A stretch of DNA of 35,725 bases from Acidobacteriaceae bacterium (GTDB lineage: Bacteria; Acidobacteriota; Terriglobia; Bryobacterales; Bryobacteraceae). Below are positions 2,031 through 28,653 of this stretch, piece by piece; positions within the stretch are counted from its first letter, which is position 1; each line of letters starts with the position of its first letter. The stretch spans positions 1-35,725 of the forward strand of contig JAFATG010000018.1 of NCBI GenBank assembly GCA_019244055.1, in the 5' to 3' direction. Under the pieces are notes generated by a model. It saw only the letters and a program-made list of their open reading frames with translations, had not been told where the DNA came from and searched no databases. The position numbers and the translations under genes were made by a program.

Positions 2031-2432
2031 CTACGTTTGTCCCTGTGCCGGCGGCCGCCCATAGTCCCTGCCAGCCAACACTTCCCGGATAGCCGGCACG
2101 AGCTCAGATACGATTTTGCTCTTTAGGACGAACCCTGCACCACCAGCTTCGAACGCACCGTCAGCATAGGCCCGCTCTCGATGTTCGGACACAAAGAGAA
2201 GCAACATTGACGGGCAAAGCCGTTTGATTTGCCGGGCAGCTTCAAACCCACTTAGAATGGGCATCGAAATGTCGAGTAACACAAGTTCCGGACTGGGTCG
2301 CTGAGCCGCTTCGACAGCGGCCTGACCATCCGCCACGCGTGCGACGATCGCGTAGTCACGGTTTAGGAGTTCCTGGAGCATTGTGCGCACCAGTGGTGAG
2401 TCGTCAGCGACTATGATGCGCGGGTGATTCAT
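2031..2432 (-). CDS. Single-domain response regulator (receiver only)
   Basis: A 133-residue receiver domain. Acidic residues D10 and D11 are near the N-terminus, the phospho-acceptor is D54 (LVLLDISMP) and the conserved Lys is K104 (VLKSK). It ends about 20 residues after the receiver, so it has no DNA-binding or enzymatic output domain. It probably acts by protein contact or as a phosphate relay. I chose the ATG at 2432 because the receiver fold starts there (MNHPRIIVADDS). A longer in-frame ORF reaching 2549 would only add residues read out of frame from the kinase gene. The start lies inside the 3' end of the kinase gene (29-nt overlap), which points to translational coupling and makes this kinase its likely partner. 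Confidence 0.9.
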   Translation of the reverse strand: MNHPRIIVADDSPLVRTMLQELLNRDYAIVARVADGQAAVEAAQRPSPELVLLDISMPILSGFEAARQIKRLCPSMLLLFVSEHRERAYADGAFEAGGAGFVLKSKIVSELVPAIREVLAGRDYGRPPAQGQT

Positions 2433-3678
2433 TTTCCCTTGGCTCTTTGGGCAAGGAAGCCTGGAGAGTAATGGTGGTGCCCTGTCCGGGATGGGAATGG
2501 ATTTGAAGATCGCCTCCAAGCGGATGTGCTCTCTCCTGCATGCTGACAATCCCTAAACCGCCCTTCCCGCGAGCCGCCGCGAGATCAAACCCCGGTCCCA
2601 TGTCTCTTACTGAGAGACGTAATACGCCTGCTTCGGCGGTCAGGGTAATATCGACAGGTGCTTCTGGGGCGTGCTTCATCGCATTGCTTAGAGCCTCTTG
2701 CGCAATCCGATAGACCGCATTGGCGTAGGGTAGTGGCAAAGAATGTGGTATCGCGTCGCCCGTGAAATGTACTGGCGCCGATCGAGCGAGTTCCGATTCT
2801 TCGGCCAGGCTTCTTAGCGCCGCCGCTAAGCCCAGATCTTCAAGAATACTCGGGTGCATTCGATGCGAGAGGTCCCGAACATCGGCGGAAAGCTCTGAAA
2901 TATGCCGCGTTAAAATCGCAAACATTTTGTCGACTTCAGGGGGATCCTTTCCAATGCGCTGTTGCTGATGTTGTTCGATCGTCATCTCCAAGAAACTCAA
3001 CCGCTGACTGAAATCGTCGTGGAGCTCGCGAGCGATCCGCCGGTCTGCGCCCTCATGGGCCTTCATCAGGCTGGCAGCGAGCGCTCTGAGCTCCTCCTTT
3101 GTTGCTTGCAGATCGTGGGAGACATCATCAGACAAGCGAGTCAACTCGTCATTCGAGCGCTTCAACTCCCAGATCAGCACCTCACGTTCCAAGAGCGCAT
3201 CTCCCAATACTTGCAGCAACTCGCCATGCACAATCAACCGGCTTTGCGGCACCGGCTGCTGCCTGCGCGCTACAGACCAAAGCGCATCAAAAGCGATCCC
3301 AGCCTTTCGCGCCAGGGTCTGAATCTCTGAAACTTGAGAAAAATCGCGGAAAACGTACCCTCCGACTGCCACCCCCACAATGTTGCCCTCCCACACGAGC
3401 GAGGTCCCGACTACAGCCAGACCACGAACCTGTGAAGCCACAACCGCGGGCCTGTCGCGCCTCTGCGCGAGACAGCGGCGGACGCAGTCAGCGAAGATTC
3501 CGGGATCATAGGCTTGCCTCTTGAATAACTCGAATAAAGGAGTGGAATGAAGGGGACCGAGGACGGACTGCCCGCCAGCATCATAAACCTTAACGGTCAT
3601 GTGGGTGGCGACCGCATACTTTTCTAATACCGTTTGCCAAAGGTCGGAGCGGAACAGTCCTTCAGTTGAGAGTTTCAT
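2404..3678 (-). CDS. Cytoplasmic sensor histidine kinase, HisKA_3/NarL type
   Basis: A 424-residue kinase without membrane segments. Residues 1-150 form a small sensory domain (begins LFRSDLWQTVLEK; ends GVAVGGYVFRDF) that resembles PocR-type or GAF-like ligand domains; this assignment is tentative. A helical linker (~165-210) leads to the HisKA_3 dimerisation box RRIARELHDDFSQRL with H220. The ATPase domain has N-box QEALSNAMKHA (N332), DMGPGFD and KGGLGIVSMQERA. I chose ATG 3678 because the longer frame up to 3864 is an out-of-frame reading of a decayed kaiC 3' end. It overlaps the receiver gene downstream. Upstream, the frame of the kaiC remnant stops at 3662, 17 nt inside this gene, so the kinase was once translationally coupled to a kaiC. 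Confidence 0.9.
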   Translation of the reverse strand: MKLSTEGLFRSDLWQTVLEKYAVATHMTVKVYDAGGQSVLGPLHSTPLFELFKRQAYDPGIFADCVRRCLAQRRDRPAVVASQVRGLAVVGTSLVWEGNIVGVAVGGYVFRDFSQVSEIQTLARKAGIAFDALWSVARRQQPVPQSRLIVHGELLQVLGDALLEREVLIWELKRSNDELTRLSDDVSHDLQATKEELRALAASLMKAHEGADRRIARELHDDFSQRLSFLEMTIEQHQQQRIGKDPPEVDKMFAILTRHISELSADVRDLSHRMHPSILEDLGLAAALRSLAEESELARSAPVHFTGDAIPHSLPLPYANAVYRIAQEALSNAMKHAPEAPVDITLTAEAGVLRLSVRDMGPGFDLAAARGKGGLGIVSMQERAHPLGGDLQIHSHPGQGTTITLQASLPKEPRENESPAHHSR

Positions 3679-4130
3679 TATTAGGGCCTGTCGCGATTTG
3701 GAGTTGCCCCCGTAGGCGGCGCTCGGGCGAACGCGATACCAGGCCAATGTAGCTGGAAAACAGATGCTGTGGTCCGGCCAGGGGCAGTTCCCGCGGCAGC
3801 ACCCGTGTGCTCTTCCCGTCAAGGATTTCAACTTCTTGCGTAACCCGGTTCGCCGGATTCGCACGCATTTTGGCTACGATCATGCCGAAGGTATCGCCGA
3901 GTTCACCCGTTCTCGCCGTTGTATAACGCCCCAATCTGCTGCTCCTTCGTGAGGGCAGGCGACTAGACCGTGAAAGAAATCTCGAAAAGATTCTTCGTTG
4001 GCTGGCCAGGTCGTGCCGTATGTAGACAGGCTATCAATCACGGTATCTTTCGGTTAAATTCCTGAACCAATTCTTAATCTGATGAACGTGCACATTCACC
4101 TCACCTCCTGGGGTGGTTCGAGGCGCTCAA
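3662..4130 (-). pseudogene. Decayed 3' end of a second kaiC-like gene
   Basis: From 3690 leftward in gene sense, this segment aligns base by base with window positions 1 to ~500, the 3' end of the intact KaiC-like gene. The stretches 'cgctcgggcgaacgcg' and 'aggccaatgtagctggaaaa' are shared. About 80 C-terminal codons remain in frame (VAKMRANP, EVEILDGK, LPREL, FSSYIGLVSRSPERRL, QIATGPNNETLN, stop at 3662). Further upstream about 100 bases are missing relative to the intact copy, and several stops and frameshifts are present. Homology fades near 4130. The whole N-terminal domain and most of CII are gone, so it cannot make a KaiC. The stop lies inside the kinase coding sequence, showing former kaiC-kinase overlap. 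Confidence 0.88.
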
Positions 4131-15087: not shown

Positions 15088-16701
15088 ATGGGCTCGATTT
15101 GGCGTTTCTCGACCGTGGCGGCGCTCAGTCTCTGCGCTGGTATCTGCACAGCACAGGTGGTGAATTACAGCGGGCCTCTAACAAGCGCGAATCCAGCCGG
15201 GCACAACCGCTATACGGTCTCCGGTTCCGTGGTCAACGCCGTAACCGGCGAACCTGTGCGCCGTGCTCTTGTCCGCCTACAAGGCCCCGAGCAGCACAGC
15301 GCCTTCACCGGGGCAGACGGGCGTTTCGAAATTCCAAATGTTCTTGAGGGCAGCTACATGCCGAACGCGCAGCGGCCCGGATTCTTTGAGGAACAGCCAA
15401 GAAACGGTTTGATCCAGCCTCGAATGTTCGTGGTCAGCGCAAGCATCGCTCCGTTGGTCCTGAAGCTCTCACCCGAATCCGCTCTCCAGGGCCACGCAGG
15501 AGACGATAAAGGCGAACCAATCGAAGACCTACAGATTCAGCTCGTCCAGCCCCAGATCATCAGCGGCAGAAGATCGTTGCAACCGGCGCAGATGGCTACC
15601 ACCGACGAAAACGGCGATTTCCTGATCGAAGGGCTCCAACCTGGCGAGTATCTCGTCCGTTCCTTACAGAGGCCGGTTGAGGAATTGTTCAACGTTTTCC
15701 AACACCGCGGCGAAGTGTATCCTCAACGGTATTATCCGGATGCGGTGGATCTCTCCTCCGCTCAACCGCTTGCGATAAGACCCGGTGAGACTGCACGCGC
15801 TGATTTCAAGCTTTCTCCTGTTCCTGCTTTCCGCGTCAGCGGTGTCGCCGGACCCGCGCCCAACGGGGCGATGATCAGCGTCGAGGATGAAACCGGGCAA
15901 GAGGTCGGCATGAACAGCTTCGGCCCTGGAAACGGCCGGTGGGTGACCCCTTTACTTCCTTCGGGCTCCTGGACGATTTCGTTCCGTACCAATGGAGCGC
16001 CCAACGGCGGCGAATACTTTGGCCGCGTATCGGTCAACGTCGATAATGCCGAAGTTCGCAACCTACAAGTTCCCTTAGCGTCCGTGCCGTCCATTCCTGT
16101 CCAGGTTCTCAATGGACCGGAAACGGGTCAGCCGAATTTGCAGCTCAGGCTCATCTCGCGCAGTACCAACCAGAACGGCCAATCCGAGTTCTACGCCGGC
16201 ATCGATCAGAAGCATCCGTCGGGACCGTTGGTCATCCAGGGCGCTCTTCCGGGAAACTACCGAGTCGTGGCCCAGGCGGGTGGCCCCTATTGCGTGGCCT
16301 CTGTCTCCTCCGGCGGAACGGATTTTTCGAACAACGATCTCGTCATCAGCCCAGGTTCCAATCCCGCCCCGTTACAAGTGAGCCTTCGCTCCGATTGCGC
16401 CGAGCTCAACTTGCAAATGCGCTCTGCTGACACGAACGCCCACGCCTCTTTGCTTCTCGTCTCGGATTCCAATGTCTTTGAGCCGAGACCCATGATGGTG
16501 CAAGCCGGAGCCTCTTTCGGTGGCGGAACTCTGCCTCCCGGCAACTACCGGCTCTACACCGTCGCTGATCTGTCGAACCTCGAGTACATGAATCCTGAAG
16601 CGCTGCGGAATCTGAGCGCGCAAGAGATCACGCTCGCGCCTAATCAAAAAGCTACCGTCACAATCGACGTGCCTGGTGAGGGCGGCTCCAATGCGCAATA
16701 G
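15088..16701 (+). CDS. Exported carboxypeptidase-regulatory-like domain protein
   Basis: A 537-residue exported protein with signal peptide WRFSTVAALSLCAGICTAQ. Residues ~43-110 form a carboxypeptidase-regulatory-like beta sandwich (YTVSGSVVNAVTGEPVRRAL, TGADGRFEIPNVLEGSY). A second such unit is at ~130-200 (GHAGDDKGEPIEDLQIQLVQ, TTDENGDFLIEGLQPGEYLV), and further beta-rich segments with GNYRV and LPPGNYRLYTV follow. There is no peptidase domain. In Acidobacteriota these domains occur in TonB-receptor-like or stand-alone surface proteins. The stop overlaps the start of a similar gene by 11 nt, so the two are co-translated and probably work as a pair. Confidence 0.85.
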   Translation: MGSIWRFSTVAALSLCAGICTAQVVNYSGPLTSANPAGHNRYTVSGSVVNAVTGEPVRRALVRLQGPEQHSAFTGADGRFEIPNVLEGSYMPNAQRPGFFEEQPRNGLIQPRMFVVSASIAPLVLKLSPESALQGHAGDDKGEPIEDLQIQLVQPQIISGRRSLQPAQMATTDENGDFLIEGLQPGEYLVRSLQRPVEELFNVFQHRGEVYPQRYYPDAVDLSSAQPLAIRPGETARADFKLSPVPAFRVSGVAGPAPNGAMISVEDETGQEVGMNSFGPGNGRWVTPLLPSGSWTISFRTNGAPNGGEYFGRVSVNVDNAEVRNLQVPLASVPSIPVQVLNGPETGQPNLQLRLISRSTNQNGQSEFYAGIDQKHPSGPLVIQGALPGNYRVVAQAGGPYCVASVSSGGTDFSNNDLVISPGSNPAPLQVSLRSDCAELNLQMRSADTNAHASLLLVSDSNVFEPRPMMVQAGASFGGGTLPPGNYRLYTVADLSNLEYMNPEALRNLSAQEITLAPNQKATVTIDVPGEGGSNAQ

Positions 16702-18439
16702 TATTCGAGTTTGCTTCCTGGTCTCAGCGCCGCTCCTTCTGCTAAGCAACTCGCGCAAAACGGGCGCGGGATCAAGCGCCCCGAGCGAAGGACGGCGGAG
16801 TTGCTTTACTGTATCTCGGCGCGTATCCGCGCCCTTTGCGCTCGCCATTGCATTTCAGCAATCGCTGCCGCCCGCGGATTCTTCCGGTTGTTGTACGATC
16901 TCCGGCATTGTCGTCGATCACGCCACAAATCGCCCGCTGCGAGGCATTGCAGTCCTCCTGAATCCGTCGGACCGGCCAGGCGATCCGCTGAGGCAAATCA
17001 CCGGCGAGGACGGCGCGTTCGCATTTTCGCATCTCTCTCCCGAGAAATATGCTCTTATGGCACAGCGCCGTGGCGAACAACCCGTCGGCTATCAGCAATA
17101 CGAAGGCTTCTTCACCGGCATTGTCGTCGGCCCCAATAACGCCACCAACATCGTTTTCCCCCTCGATAGTCCAGCTAGAATCTCGGGAACTGTCGTCGAT
17201 GAGAACGGCGATCCCGTGCCGCAGGCCAACGTGATTCTCTTCCGAAAATCCGTTTCTCTCGGCAAAGCCGGTACAACTCAGATGGGCAGCGCCAACACTG
17301 GCTCATCCGGGTTATTTCACTTCAGTCATTTGCAAGCGGGAACTTATTTCATCGGCGTATCCGCGCGGCCTTGGTATGCCGAAAATCCGCCGCAATTTCA
17401 GCCGCAACAAAATGGCGTCGGCGTGCCGGTCAATCAAGTGAGCAATCCCGAGTTGGACGTCGCCTATCCAGTAACTTATTACGCCGATACAACCGACCCG
17501 CAGGCGGCCTCTCCAGTCGTGCTCAATGAAGGCGGCGGTGCAACGATTCAGGTCAACCTACGCGCGGTTCCGGCGCTTCACGTTCCCATTACCGGACCCG
17601 CAACGGGCGAAGAACCGGCAGAACCAAACCAAGGCTTCAACAGTTCCGTTTCGGTGGAAGGACCAGGGGGCGCACTCGTCAACATCGGCGCACCTGTGTT
17701 TGGCTTCGGCAACTCGGGGGAATTGACCGGCATCGCGCCGGGAAAGTATATGGTCAATATCAACCGGTTTGGTAATGGCAAACAACAGTTCGGATTCAGC
17801 CAGTCCGTCGATCTCGCCGCCGGTTCAACCCTCCAGGTGCGCAGCGGCTCCTCGAGTTCCATTGCTGGGCGCATCACATTCGAAGGTGTCGCGCCGCGCA
17901 CGCCCTTTATTCAGTTCACTGGAAAAACAGGAAATACAGGCGTCCAAATTAATCCGAACGGTACGTTCTCGCTCAACGAGTCTCTTGCGCCCGGCCGTTA
18001 CGAGATTCTGATCCCCGGAGCCTACGTCAAATTAATCGCCGCCAAAGGCGCAACCGCATCGGGGGACTCCGTCGAAATTCCGGAAAACGGTTCGGTTCAA
18101 CTCCAAATCACGGCCGGCAGGGGCGCGGGCGTTTCTAAAATTGAGGGATTCGTGGTTCGAAACGGAACAGGCGTACCCGCCGCCATGGTCCTTCTTCTCC
18201 CGAACGATCTCGATCGCCCCGCCTTGATTCGGCGCGACCAGAGCGATTCCGATGGCTCTTTCAATCTGCCCGCGATTCTTCCCGGCGGTTACACCCTGCT
18301 CGCCATCGATGACGGCCGCGACCTTGCCTATCAGGATCCCGATGTCATAAAACCGTATCTGGCGCAAGGCAGGCCGATCGAGGCGCCTCTGAACGGCAAC
18401 TCGAAAATAGAAATACCCGTCATCGCCCGGCGCCGCTGA
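16691..18439 (+). CDS. Exported carboxypeptidase-regulatory-like protein with interrupted signal peptide
   Basis: A 582-residue relative of the upstream gene, with regulatory-like sandwiches at ISGIVVDHATNRPLRGIAV (GEDGAFAFSHLSPEKYAL), ARISGTVVDENGDPVPQANV (FHFSHLQAGTYFIGV) and IEGFVVRNGTGVPAAMVLLL (SDGSFNLPAILPGGYTLL). I chose ATG 16691, with GAGG 9 nt upstream. The N-terminus is odd. The hydrophobic run RVCFLVSAPLLLL stops at residue 18, about 34 polar residues follow that are encoded by a dispersed repeat (16742-16842), and a second hydrophobic run ALAIAFQQ resumes. Removing the repeat recreates one continuous signal peptide, so export may be altered. If ALAIAF is too short to serve, residues 7-18 alone must do the work. 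Confidence 0.85.
   Translation: MRNSIRVCFLVSAPLLLLSNSRKTGAGSSAPSEGRRSCFTVSRRVSAPFALAIAFQQSLPPADSSGCCTISGIVVDHATNRPLRGIAVLLNPSDRPGDPLRQITGEDGAFAFSHLSPEKYALMAQRRGEQPVGYQQYEGFFTGIVVGPNNATNIVFPLDSPARISGTVVDENGDPVPQANVILFRKSVSLGKAGTTQMGSANTGSSGLFHFSHLQAGTYFIGVSARPWYAENPPQFQPQQNGVGVPVNQVSNPELDVAYPVTYYADTTDPQAASPVVLNEGGGATIQVNLRAVPALHVPITGPATGEEPAEPNQGFNSSVSVEGPGGALVNIGAPVFGFGNSGELTGIAPGKYMVNINRFGNGKQQFGFSQSVDLAAGSTLQVRSGSSSSIAGRITFEGVAPRTPFIQFTGKTGNTGVQINPNGTFSLNESLAPGRYEILIPGAYVKLIAAKGATASGDSVEIPENGSVQLQITAGRGAGVSKIEGFVVRNGTGVPAAMVLLLPNDLDRPALIRRDQSDSDGSFNLPAILPGGYTLLAIDDGRDLAYQDPDVIKPYLAQGRPIEAPLNGNSKIEIPVIARRR
16742..16842 (+). repeat. Dispersed ~101-bp structured repeat, copy A (inside signal-peptide codons)
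   Basis: Nearly identical to copy B at 26133-26234, with about seven differences and one indel. It begins CTAAGCAACTCGCGC and ends CCCTTTGCGCT. It holds two inverted-repeat pairs. AAGCAACTC pairs with GAGTTGCTT, and GCGCAAA-ac-GGGCGCGG pairs with CCGCGCCCTTTGCGC (15 bp with a 2-nt bulge). The pairs interleave (1-2-1'-2'), a pseudoknot topology. A local hairpin GGCGCG-TATC-CGCGCC competes with the second. It has no internal stop in this reading frame and is read as protein. No protein-coding role of its own is seen. Confidence 0.85.
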
Positions 18440-26104: not shown

Positions 26105-26132
26105 GGTGGAAACCCATTCTACCCGGGGTCTT

Positions 26133-26234
26133 CTAAGCAACTCGCGCAAAACGGTCGCGGAATCAAGCGCCCCCGAGCCAAGGACGGCGGAGTTGCTTTA
26201 CTGTATCTCGGCGCGCATCCGCGCCCTTTGCGCT
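26133..26234 (+). repeat. Dispersed ~101-bp structured repeat, copy B (between AsmA-like and GAF-like genes)
   Basis: This is the second copy of the element at 16742-16842, with one extra C and a few substitutions. The AAGCAACTC/GAGTTGCTT pair is intact. The longer pair has one mismatch (CCGCGACC in place of CCGCGCCC on the complementary strand). It fills most of the gap between two minus-strand genes, and its right end forms the AsmA-like stop codon (TAG at 26233-26235 spans the junction). It lies on the strand opposite to the flanking genes, whereas copy A lies on the same strand as its host gene. Confidence 0.85.
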
Positions 26235-28653
26235 AACGATCCGCAGAAAGGCTGTTATCGGGCGCGATGGCAGCCCTCTTCTCGGGAATCAGCGGCGTGA
26301 TCAGATGCATCTGGCGGTCGCCGCTAACCAGGTCGAAAGCAAGCTTACCGTTATCCTGCGTGGCGGCTTCCCCGCTCCAATCATAGTCAGCTTGACTAGC
26401 TTGAATATCTGATAAGCGAAGATTCGGCGCCTGGTCATCGAAGGAGAACGTGAATGCTCCCGAGAGCGACTCGAAGGAATCGGAAGGTGTCAGGTTGACA
26501 TCTTCTGCTGAAAAGCTGCCGACCGCGCGGAGATTATGCACCATGTCCAGTCCGACACCGGACGTCTGCCAATCACCGTTAGCCCGTAACAGACCGCCTT
26601 TCCAGGGCAGGCCGGTAACTAACGTCTTGAAACGCCAGCGGGGCAAATACGAATGGAGGTCAATGACCCCTTGCCCTTGAGCGGAGAAATCGCCTTTCCT
26701 GATGCTCATGGAGACAAGCTGCACACTGGGACCCTCCCAGGTGAAGCGGGACGATAGGGCGCCCAGTTCCATCCCGTTCACCGAGAGGGAGCCCACTTGA
26801 ATATCTCCTTCCAGATTGCGCATTGCCAGCCAGGATGGAATGGACCGGTGCATGAGGCGCAGTCGCGCCAGCAGGCTTCTATCCTCTAACGAGGGTTGAA
26901 GGGCCGTCCCGAGTTGCATCAGACTCGCCGCAGACATTTGCAGATGGAGATGCTCCGTGCGCCGGCCCCGCGCGTTGTAGTGATAGCTGGCTCGAACCAT
27001 CTGGTGTGCAAGATTAGCGGTGAAGTGAGTAAGATCGAACGTCGAATTATCAAACGCGATTCGACCCTGGGCCTGATCAAGAGCAGACGCGAGTCCGGGA
27101 ATAGTGAGGATACCGTTGATCAAACGAACTTGTCCGCTCCATGACGGCTTCTCTTCCATTAATTGAGTCGAAGCGGTTTGATCTCGTGAATACTCGAGTT
27201 GGCCTGTGATCGCGCCGGCAGTGAGGGCACCGAGCGCGTCAGGATTAGAAAACCAGGCGTCGGCCATTTGTTTCAAAGCCTTCACCGGAAACGCCTGTGC
27301 CGATAAAGAGGCAATCGCCTTTTCGCCGGAGAAGTAATACTCGCCCGCAACTCGCAAGGCGCCACTGGAGGAAGTCTGAATGATCGCAGGATCGAAGCGT
27401 ATATGGTCGGGTAGGACGGTTGCGAGGACGGAGTCAGTCCGCATAGGCGGCATGTCAGGCAATTTGGCGAGCGCATCCTTGATCTCGAGCCCGCCGGCCA
27501 AACCCGTGCCGTTCGAGTACCCTATCGCGCCGTCGACACGTCCGGCAATGGACACGTCCTGCGGCAGGTTGATTCCCATGCGCTTTGCGAACGGCAGAAT
27601 CTCTTCGACCGGTACTTCATGCAAGTTGGCCATCATCGACCAAGCTGGCCGGGTAAGGAAATCTGAGATGCGCATTTGCAGGGACACGGGAGTCGTTTGA
27701 CCAGCCGCGGATGTCGTCGAAAGCTCGAGACGATGATCGATGAGATTTAAGAGACCGACATAACGGACGCGCCACTCTTCCCCGCTCGAAGGGAGCAGGT
27801 CCCAGCGATGGATATCTTGCAGTGTCAATTCGCCATTAACGCGCAAGGCATTCAGCGGACCCGCGATGTGCGCGACGGATCGGACGTTCCCATGTATGCC
27901 GATATCGTGTCCTTCGACTAGCGTTGTAAGCTCGCTCAGATTGCTCTCATCGAGATTTAAGTCCGCCTCGAGCCGGTTTGTGTTGGCGGCCTTCAGATCC
28001 CAGTCGGCGCGGCCACGGAAGTGACTAAAGGTGTTCCCAGCACGATCTGTACGTGCCGGTGATCCCGAAAATTGAATGTAGATTTTCCCGGAGCGTTCGG
28101 GATAGATACTCAGGCCGGCTTCCGCGATGTAGAGCGTGGTTTTGCGGGTTCCGAATTTGAAGTCGATGCGGCCATCGGCAACGGTCAGGGCTGGGAATAA
28201 ATTGAGAGGGCCACCTAGCGGCGCGCTCAGGCGATGGATGAGTTCAACGACGTTCCAGGTCCCGTCATCGCGCTTCACCAGGTTGAGCGAAGGATCGATC
28301 AGGCGTAACCCGGACAGCCGAATTTTCCCGAACAGAAGCTTATCGAGCCGGAGCCGAACCTTCAGCGTCGGCACATAGGCGAAGGGTTCGAGACCATACC
28401 GAGGATCTTCGCTGATGATCACGTTTTCGAGCGAGAAACCGGGGCCGAAAAAAAGAGTGAAGTGGAGGGCCGAGAAATGAACGGTGCGGCCGAGCGAAGA
28501 TTCGAGGGCGGCCCGCACGCGCCCGCTGAACCGGCCGGCGTTTACGAACGGAGCAGCAATACCGAGGACGAGGATTGCGAGCAGACCAGCAAAAGTTATG
28601 CGCCAGAAGAGGCGCGCTGAAGGCGTAGCTTTAGATGTCGCAAGTTCTTGAAT
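26233..28653 (-). CDS. AsmA-like envelope protein (start codon non-canonical or lost)
   Basis: About 806 residues if read from 28653. The membrane anchor RLFWRITFAGLLAILVLGIA is followed by APFVNAGRFSGRVRAALES, SLGRTVHFSALHFTLFFGPG and FSLENVIISEDPRYG, typical of AsmA N-termini. Long beta-rich repeats follow, as in bridge-like lipid-transfer AsmA/TamB relatives, with RLDKLLFGKIRLSGLRLIDP and AGRVDGAIGYSNGTGL. Such proteins span the periplasm and affect outer-membrane lipid balance. The anchor codons contain no ATG, GTG or TTG. The first canonical start is GTG 28518, after the anchor. ATT 28653, four codons after an in-frame TAG, is the best candidate, with AGGT 7 nt upstream. The stop codon is supplied by repeat copy B. 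The gene is the first of the minus-strand run. Confidence 0.82.
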   Translation of the reverse strand: MQELATSKATPSARLFWRITFAGLLAILVLGIAAPFVNAGRFSGRVRAALESSLGRTVHFSALHFTLFFGPGFSLENVIISEDPRYGLEPFAYVPTLKVRLRLDKLLFGKIRLSGLRLIDPSLNLVKRDDGTWNVVELIHRLSAPLGGPLNLFPALTVADGRIDFKFGTRKTTLYIAEAGLSIYPERSGKIYIQFSGSPARTDRAGNTFSHFRGRADWDLKAANTNRLEADLNLDESNLSELTTLVEGHDIGIHGNVRSVAHIAGPLNALRVNGELTLQDIHRWDLLPSSGEEWRVRYVGLLNLIDHRLELSTTSAAGQTTPVSLQMRISDFLTRPAWSMMANLHEVPVEEILPFAKRMGINLPQDVSIAGRVDGAIGYSNGTGLAGGLEIKDALAKLPDMPPMRTDSVLATVLPDHIRFDPAIIQTSSSGALRVAGEYYFSGEKAIASLSAQAFPVKALKQMADAWFSNPDALGALTAGAITGQLEYSRDQTASTQLMEEKPSWSGQVRLINGILTIPGLASALDQAQGRIAFDNSTFDLTHFTANLAHQMVRASYHYNARGRRTEHLHLQMSAASLMQLGTALQPSLEDRSLLARLRLMHRSIPSWLAMRNLEGDIQVGSLSVNGMELGALSSRFTWEGPSVQLVSMSIRKGDFSAQGQGVIDLHSYLPRWRFKTLVTGLPWKGGLLRANGDWQTSGVGLDMVHNLRAVGSFSAEDVNLTPSDSFESLSGAFTFSFDDQAPNLRLSDIQASQADYDWSGEAATQDNGKLAFDLVSGDRQMHLITPLIPEKRAAIAPDNSLSADR

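Follow-up and report, generated by a model that had tools for sequence, protein, structure and literature searches.

The window, the whole stretch of 35,725 nt analysed here, is contig C261 of a draft genome of an Acidobacteriaceae bacterium (6.2 Mb in 372 contigs). Its self-comparison returned a pair of short repeats at positions 16738-16842 and 26129-26234, 9.39 kb apart, with 97% identity over 64 nt and 93% over 45 nt; the two copies differ in 6 alignment columns. Copy 1 (16741..16842, plus strand) lies within an ORF for a CarboxypepD_reg protein (16691..18439, plus strand; assigned by Pfam), to whose signal peptide it contributes 34 in-frame residues. When 11 homologues of the genus (37-47% identical) were inspected by eye, these residues were missing from their N-termini. 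Copy 2 (26132..26234, plus strand; recognised by its sequence match to copy 1) is antisense on one side to an AsmA-like gene (26233..28518, minus strand), the TAG stop of which is created at the junction with the element, and on the other side to an unassigned minus-strand ORF. The first-pass annotation of this DNA had described two near-identical copies about 9.4 kb apart, oppositely oriented relative to their host genes and with no transposase nearby. This description holds: copy 1 is in sense within a plus-strand ORF, copy 2 is antisense to minus-strand genes, and a Pfam search with eleven of the window ORFs brought up no transposase. The window also contains another direct repeat, distinct from the element and 199 nt long (positions 1-199 and 3690-3888, 79% identity); the copy at 3690-3888 overlaps the beginning of a histidine-kinase-like ORF (minus strand, 2404-3864).

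The repeat first delimited as a 101-bp unit is real, but its size needs correction: copy 1 comprises 102 nt and ends in ...CCCTTTGCGCT, and copy 2 comprises 103 nt with one extra C in P3, both starting directly after a flanking CT (16739..16740 and 26130..26131, plus strand), the putative target and left cut site. Three helices were recognised. P1 (9 bp) joins its 5' arm AAGCAACTC (16744..16752, plus strand) to GAGTTGCTT (16798..16806, plus strand), and P2 (15 bp) joins GCGCAAAACGGGCGCGG (16753..16769, plus strand), which carries a 2-nt AC bulge, to CCGCGCCCTTTGCGC (16827..16841, plus strand), followed by the terminal T (16842). These are the interleaved 9-bp and ~15-bp inverted repeats proposed earlier, the latter now resolved as 15 pairs plus the 2-nt bulge. 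The third helix, P3 (10 bp; 16776..16785 with 16815..16824, plus strand, one mismatch in the 5' arm), was absent from that annotation; it lies inside P2, and its loop pairs with the 5' tail of the element as P1, which makes the fold a pseudoknot. In copy 2, P1 is formed by 26135..26143 and 26190..26198, and P2 by 26144..26160, with one mismatch, and 26219..26233 (all plus strand). P1 is paired at 9 of 9 positions in both window copies, whereas P2 and P3 together are paired at 24 of 25 in copy 1 and 23 of 25 in copy 2.

The element is not confined to these two copies, as the genome-wide search suggested earlier, run with BLAST, gave 21 matches in the source genome (a number that includes halves of copies split by inserts, and diverged ones). 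Matches were present in 12 of 17 genomes of the genus (E up to 0.001). Of 150 family genomes, 31 gave covariance-model matches, spread over 20 of the 76 genera of the family; seven of these genomes have one match each, and copy numbers are lower bounds, no more than 26 candidates having been scored per genome. The left-end motif GGAACNCGCGCAMAACGG, with at most one mismatch, occurred 21, 69, 61 and 56 times in G138, G156, G148 and G065, and its backward control zero times in the same genomes. In a phylum sample of 396 genomes (three of them from the family), 33 genomes outside the family had one or two matches, compared with 27 for the backward control; among 29 outside-family loci, 26 lacked a right end in the scan and the other three had no credible one on reading. 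As these matches stay near the control level and lack credible right ends, amplification is seen only in this family. The covariance model, applied to 80 of 110 loci, matched metagenome-assembled genomes (MAGs) labelled as Acidobacteriota lineages and one labelled Verrucomicrobiota (L249), which comes from the same sampling series as the Acidobacteriota MAGs. The labels among the matches listed for these 80 of 110 loci were Bryobacterales, Bryobacteraceae, Acidobacteriaceae, Terriglobia and Acidobacteriota, which indirectly points to a Bryobacteraceae-like family of soil Acidobacteria as the host group. A pattern scan of named genomes also matched other phyla, as expected by chance, among the matches listed. 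One short element-like copy was noticed in a viral collection (L519, an IMG/VR contig, ~1469-1513); the eight other matches of that pattern search had no right end nearby.

Copies range from 77 to 102 nt overall and fall into subfamilies of ~102, 93-97 and 77 nt, in addition to a 44-nt form; of 66 aligned copies, 50 are exactly 102 nt long. Their common ends are sharp: 5'-CT/TTCTGAGGAACnCGCGCAMAACGG...CCTKTGCGCT-3', with the slash at the left junction. The alignment was built from 71 sequences, five of which were omitted (three with hairpin inserts, one truncated and one diverged). CT occupies the left flank in 42 of the 66 copies, in 36 of 58 non-tandem copies and in 116 of 163 elements of a wider set restricted to matches with both ends within 130 nt, and is absent from about a third of copies; the final two bases of the element itself are CT in 63 of 66. 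Comparison of copy flanks revealed no further conserved position on the left beyond CT, and on the right a scarcity of G at the first base (1/65) and its frequent occurrence at the sixth (37/65), biases that are partly due to arrays and to a shared repeat. Head-to-tail arrays with periods of 102, 93, 77 and 44 nt were detected. The 44-nt unit retains the left tail together with the bulged hairpin, without the P1 partner and P3; in G148 (L504-L506), near-identical 44-nt units are arrayed at contig ends, which suggests that the arrays are longer than assembled and broke the assembly. Some copies from the source genome (G000) and G010 contain, between P2 and P3, a ~46-nt hairpin (L015, L019, L118 and L119, with two inserts each in L118 and L119). 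The ends of this hairpin look like those of the element, so that it may represent a mini-element nested in a larger copy. In L168 (G010, ~590-630), a copy has lost nearly all of the interior between the P2 arms, as replication slippage over the hairpin would give.

An empty site was identified in G014, where two paralogous regions with class-3 TnpA_Y1 genes match at 92% identity for 556 nt, as far as CACCGCT. From this point the empty region (L102) continues directly into CCCTGTGGTCGCGGCTCAG, and the filled one (L101) contains a 100-nt element followed by CCCTCTGGTCGCGGCTCAG; the 3' half of a repeat is common to both on the right, and the right flanks diverge past it. The same repeat half was found downstream of several other G014 copies. 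The element was thus inserted into a REP-like repeat directly after CT, and in this single paralogous pair no duplication is visible beyond CT. The pair was found by hand, and a regular-expression list of filled repeat sites matched none. Together with the sharp ends and the scattered sites, this comparison of filled and empty sites and the insertion into another repeat family support the earlier suggestion of a small non-autonomous mobile element. Dispersal of such a mobile, structured and non-autonomous element family is, in our judgement, close to certain.

IS621 inserts at CT and into REP loops, and it is conceivable that the element is circularised and inserted by an IS110-type site-specific recombinase with a CT core. 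The CT at both ends of the element and its insertion into REP loops resemble IS621, and IS110 genes are present in 12 of the 14 genus genomes searched. However, among 30 IS110 loci a single one (L128) lies near an element, beyond the gene and not at matching ends, and was taken as a chance neighbour, and target sequence is scant beyond CT, with an unconserved left flank and weak right-flank biases; we hold this explanation to be quite improbable. An ordinary MITE, double-stranded and driven via inverted ends by a DDE transposase, would account for the partly inverted ends (P2) and the size of 77-102 nt, but not for the conserved 5' tail, which lies outside P2 and lacks an inverted counterpart at the 3' end, nor for the filled/empty pair, in which no target is duplicated beyond CT. 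Moreover, no autonomous relative was recognised, since not one of 216 matches to the left end was connected with both a gene and a right end further away, with the reservation that most of these stretches end ~1.3-1.5 kb past the left end and a longer element could escape; a DDE-driven MITE seems highly improbable.

The folded structure was examined in the 66 aligned copies. In the structure named above, 88.5% of cells were paired, compared with 84.5% after shuffling and 35-54% with slid partners; 78 cells showed double changes versus 32.3 in shuffled alignments, and the covariation score of 0.147 (0.091 shuffled) was reached by none of 500 shuffles. The number of pairs with double changes was unexceptional (13 versus 10.1 shuffled, reached by 35 of 500). 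By helix, 77.6% of P1 cells, 93.9% of P2 cells and 90.1% of P3 cells were paired. The strongest changes concern the P3 tip, where pairs changed on both sides in 7, 15 and 25 sequences, and P1 columns 10-69, with both sides changed in 5 of the 9 P1 pairs; P2 is nearly invariant within the genus and its double changes are few (three pairs, one sequence each). In the wider set, with 164 distinct elements, one of the P2 pairs reads A-T in 119, C-G in 41 and A.G in 4. The 3' arms of P1 and P3 are both placed by covariation in the copy alignment, and that of P1 also by an alignment-free test, in which a P1 run of at least 8 pairs was found in 81 of 156 elements (52%), compared with 27% after exchange of interiors between genomes, 4.5% for a reversed arm and 1% after shuffling; the run was absent from all 7 short forms. 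Kinship among the sequences inflates such covariation tests, which are good evidence rather than a formal probability.

The element strand of L002, a locus from the same genome, folds much better than dinucleotide shuffles (z of -4.96 as DNA and -4.66 as RNA), and its opposite strand folds less well (-3.33 as RNA). RNAalifold, run without pseudoknots, partly recovered P3 and not P2, giving a small alternative hairpin instead, an outcome that speaks against a simple reading of the alignment; the case for P2 rests on the covariation count, the change between A-T and C-G in the wider set and the single-sequence folds of L002. As to the compensatory changes asked for earlier, the stems keep pairing through base changes instead of being broken by them, and that the structure is kept by compensatory change is well supported.

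A conserved pseudoknot with covariation, together with the RNA fold of L002, is also what would be expected of a mobile structured RNA, in which the plus strand is transcribed, folded and moved via RNA, like a bacterial SINE or a HEARO-like RNA, and in G010 there are copies truncated at the 5' side with intact 3' ends. From these truncations alone a retro-element reading does not follow, as 3'-truncated copies also exist, at least L120, L384, L397, L423 and L424. Against movement via RNA, the single filled/empty pair exhibits neither target duplication nor tail, and the 44-nt form is still arrayed without P1 and P3. Searches of Rfam with the window, and with eight loci representing other subfamilies, gave no match at the gathering threshold; L002 and L015, searched at E up to 5, gave one sub-threshold match away from the element. 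The CT ends, the strand asymmetry and the orientation fit single-stranded DNA better than a mobile structured RNA, a route that we consider unlikely. An HDV-like ribozyme was set aside because its helix order differs, and an integron attC site because the end motifs do not fit (both by inspection).

As to orientation, 14 of 15 events with |skew| >0.1 have the element strand on the strand that is locally richer in G, as do 20 of 25 with |skew| >0.05 and 37 of all 59; over all 59 events the bias is not significant (p = 0.067), and the cut-offs were chosen after a first look. The stretches (19 from G138, 35 from G156 and 5 from G148) were chosen from longer contigs, and gene direction was uncontrolled. 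The direction of this bias fits that expected for the lagging-strand template.

In search of the mobilising enzyme, no Y1 gene was found to be systematically linked to the element: out of 72 stretches around 70 Y1 matches (~1.5 kb on each side, some overlapping), two hold one copy each. A further left-end match near a Y1 gene (L107, 3 mismatches) lacks a right end and was taken as chance. Y1 genes of the PF01797 family occur in 27 of 31 element genomes and in 89 of 119 others (p = 0.23), and G011, G032 and G123 contain the element with no Y1 match in either the PF01797 or the class-3 search. The PF01797 model misses some genes, as G099 has a class-3 match without a PF01797 match.

In the accessible text of PMC6006769, class-3 TnpA_Y1 genes of Acidobacteria are accompanied by CnGA-footed structures, about 600 of them in Solibacter usitatus, and the CTGA at the 5' end of our element is like this foot; in the element, CTGA or CTAA stands directly after the CT junction and not at the hairpin foot. 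Class-3-like genes were identified in G014, G010, G002, G050, G130 and G156, and one of them (G014:C220) adjoins an element. The element could accordingly be regarded as the repeat of a class-3 Y1 'REPtron' known from Acidobacteria. We consider this decidedly improbable: in 30 class-3 loci, CTGACGGTCGCGG (at most 2 mismatches) was present in 24 and the left-end motif of the element (at most 3 mismatches) in none, and class-3 genes and the element show no tendency to co-occur across the genomes of the family. Class-3 matches (E up to 1e-10) were obtained in 52 of its 150 genomes, namely in 12 of 31 with the element (several of them only fragments) and in 40 of 119 others (p = 0.67). The copy beside G014:C220, on one side only and outside the 30 loci, is explained by insertion of the element into the class-3-associated repeat. 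CTGACGGTCGCGG is itself a REP-like repeat that accompanies class-3 Y1 genes (L444-L473; L101-L103).

In-frame insertion into coding genes was encountered in the window ORF and beyond it, as noted by eye in other frames; the 20 open frames inspected are a chosen subset. In G002 (L038), the element sits in frame within a di-haem cytochrome c peroxidase, downstream of the CAACH motif, and two stretches of this protein, one on each side of the insert, align to 3o5c. A Pfam domain was found in seven of the nine proteins tested. Units of 102 and 93 nt have lengths divisible by three, unlike the other forms. In-frame insertions represent a route for adding peptides to proteins, here within a signal peptide and close to a haem site.

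Taking these data together, we favour, with somewhat more than even confidence, a non-autonomous mobile DNA element, the folded strand of which a HuH/Y1-type enzyme would cut and join at CT in trans; the single-strand, CT-cutting mechanism as such is moderately supported. The substrate would be the element strand, folding when single-stranded, probably on the lagging-strand template, and a trans-acting HuH/Y1-type nuclease would recognise the bulged hairpin and cut on the 3' side of both the flanking CT and the terminal CT of the element, the strand then being joined to another CT. The 5' cut site would be held next to the foot of the hairpin by P1. The terminal GCGCT may itself serve as a CT target and so account for the exact head-to-tail arrays, and P1 seems helpful but not essential, since 44-nt forms without the P1 partner or P3 are also arrayed. 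By analogy, the one-strand asymmetry, the CT at both ends, the bulged hairpin, the self-targeted arrays and the absence of duplication resemble Y1 (HuH) systems. REP-type Y1 enzymes (TnpA-REP) cut at CT beside a hairpin, and in E. coli the stem bulge is needed, according to the accessible text of PMC8266576; judged by its junction sequences, the element could be cut in the same manner.

In the literature searched (repeats of Acidobacteria, Solibacter and Bryobacter, REP/RAYT/REPIN, RPE and pseudoknot REP, with subscription journals and supplements outside the scope), the portions available to us hold no account of the element. The same applies to the available portions of PMC8266576, PMC6006769, PMC3733652, PMC10969869 and PMC3174227, and the corresponding part of the Solibacter genome paper reports many short repeats, none described as this element. 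A bolder and doubtful reading, which we put forward tentatively, is that of a new class of transposable element with a pseudoknotted single-strand substrate, its 5' end threaded into the loop of its own hairpin so as to position the left cut site, a trans-acting nuclease other than a linked RAYT, family-wide spread and in-frame gene insertion. Dispersed repeats of the REP-like type are widespread in bacteria, and their mode of spread is poorly understood; the absence of a linked transposase raises the question of which enzyme moves such elements in trans. The sharp ends, the filled/empty pair, the length subfamilies, the minimal 44-nt form and the compensated pseudoknot offer handles for testing directly what part DNA folding plays in mobility.

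Among known systems, IS621, of the IS110 type, is like our element in CT and REP-loop insertion and unlike it in that its ends are not common to the IS110 genes examined. In IS200/IS605 transposition, the left cut lies in the flank and the right cut inside the element. Miniatures derived from this family would share, by analogy, such strand-specific ends, the insertion after a short motif and the lagging-strand orientation, whereas in our element one hairpin spans both ends, and no autonomous IS with these ends was found among the 216 left-end matches. Rickettsia palindromic elements (RPE) likewise consist of a short palindromic unit placed in frame in unrelated genes (accessible text of PMC10969869), but only some copies of our element sit in genes, and the likeness is one of description. 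The class-3 TnpA_Y1 repeats, as far as PMC6006769 presents them in its accessible text, agree with the element in phylum, high copy number and a CTGA-like sequence at the 5' side; they differ in that the class-3 genes studied here go with CTGACGGTCGCGG, with the published class-3 structures compared by description only.

The closest comparison concerns REP and REPIN sequences with their RAYT genes, which are likewise high-copy dispersed hairpins with no transposase inside. Membership in the RAYT-associated REP/REPtron group was rejected: none of the 72 Y1 stretches contains a Y1 gene flanked by copies on both sides, the GTAG (or GTGG/CGTC) foot is absent from the 66-copy alignment, where AACnC precedes P2, and instead of a single hairpin of 20-40 nt the main forms measure ~102, 93-97 and 77 nt with three helices, or two joined, although a 44-nt single-hairpin form exists. 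The first-pass statement that the repeat does not obviously match known REP/BIME elements agrees with the missing GTAG foot and with the presence of the element in only two of these 72 stretches. In the accessible parts of the respective sources, REPs of the E. coli group share with our element the stem bulge and the CT cutting sites beside the hairpin (PMC8266576), and REPs more generally share clustering in tandem (PMC3733652) and insertions into some genes that leave the frame unbroken (PMC6006769). In contrast to REPs, our element has 77-102 nt, three helices and a pseudoknot, and does without both the GTAG foot and a Y1 gene flanked on both sides.
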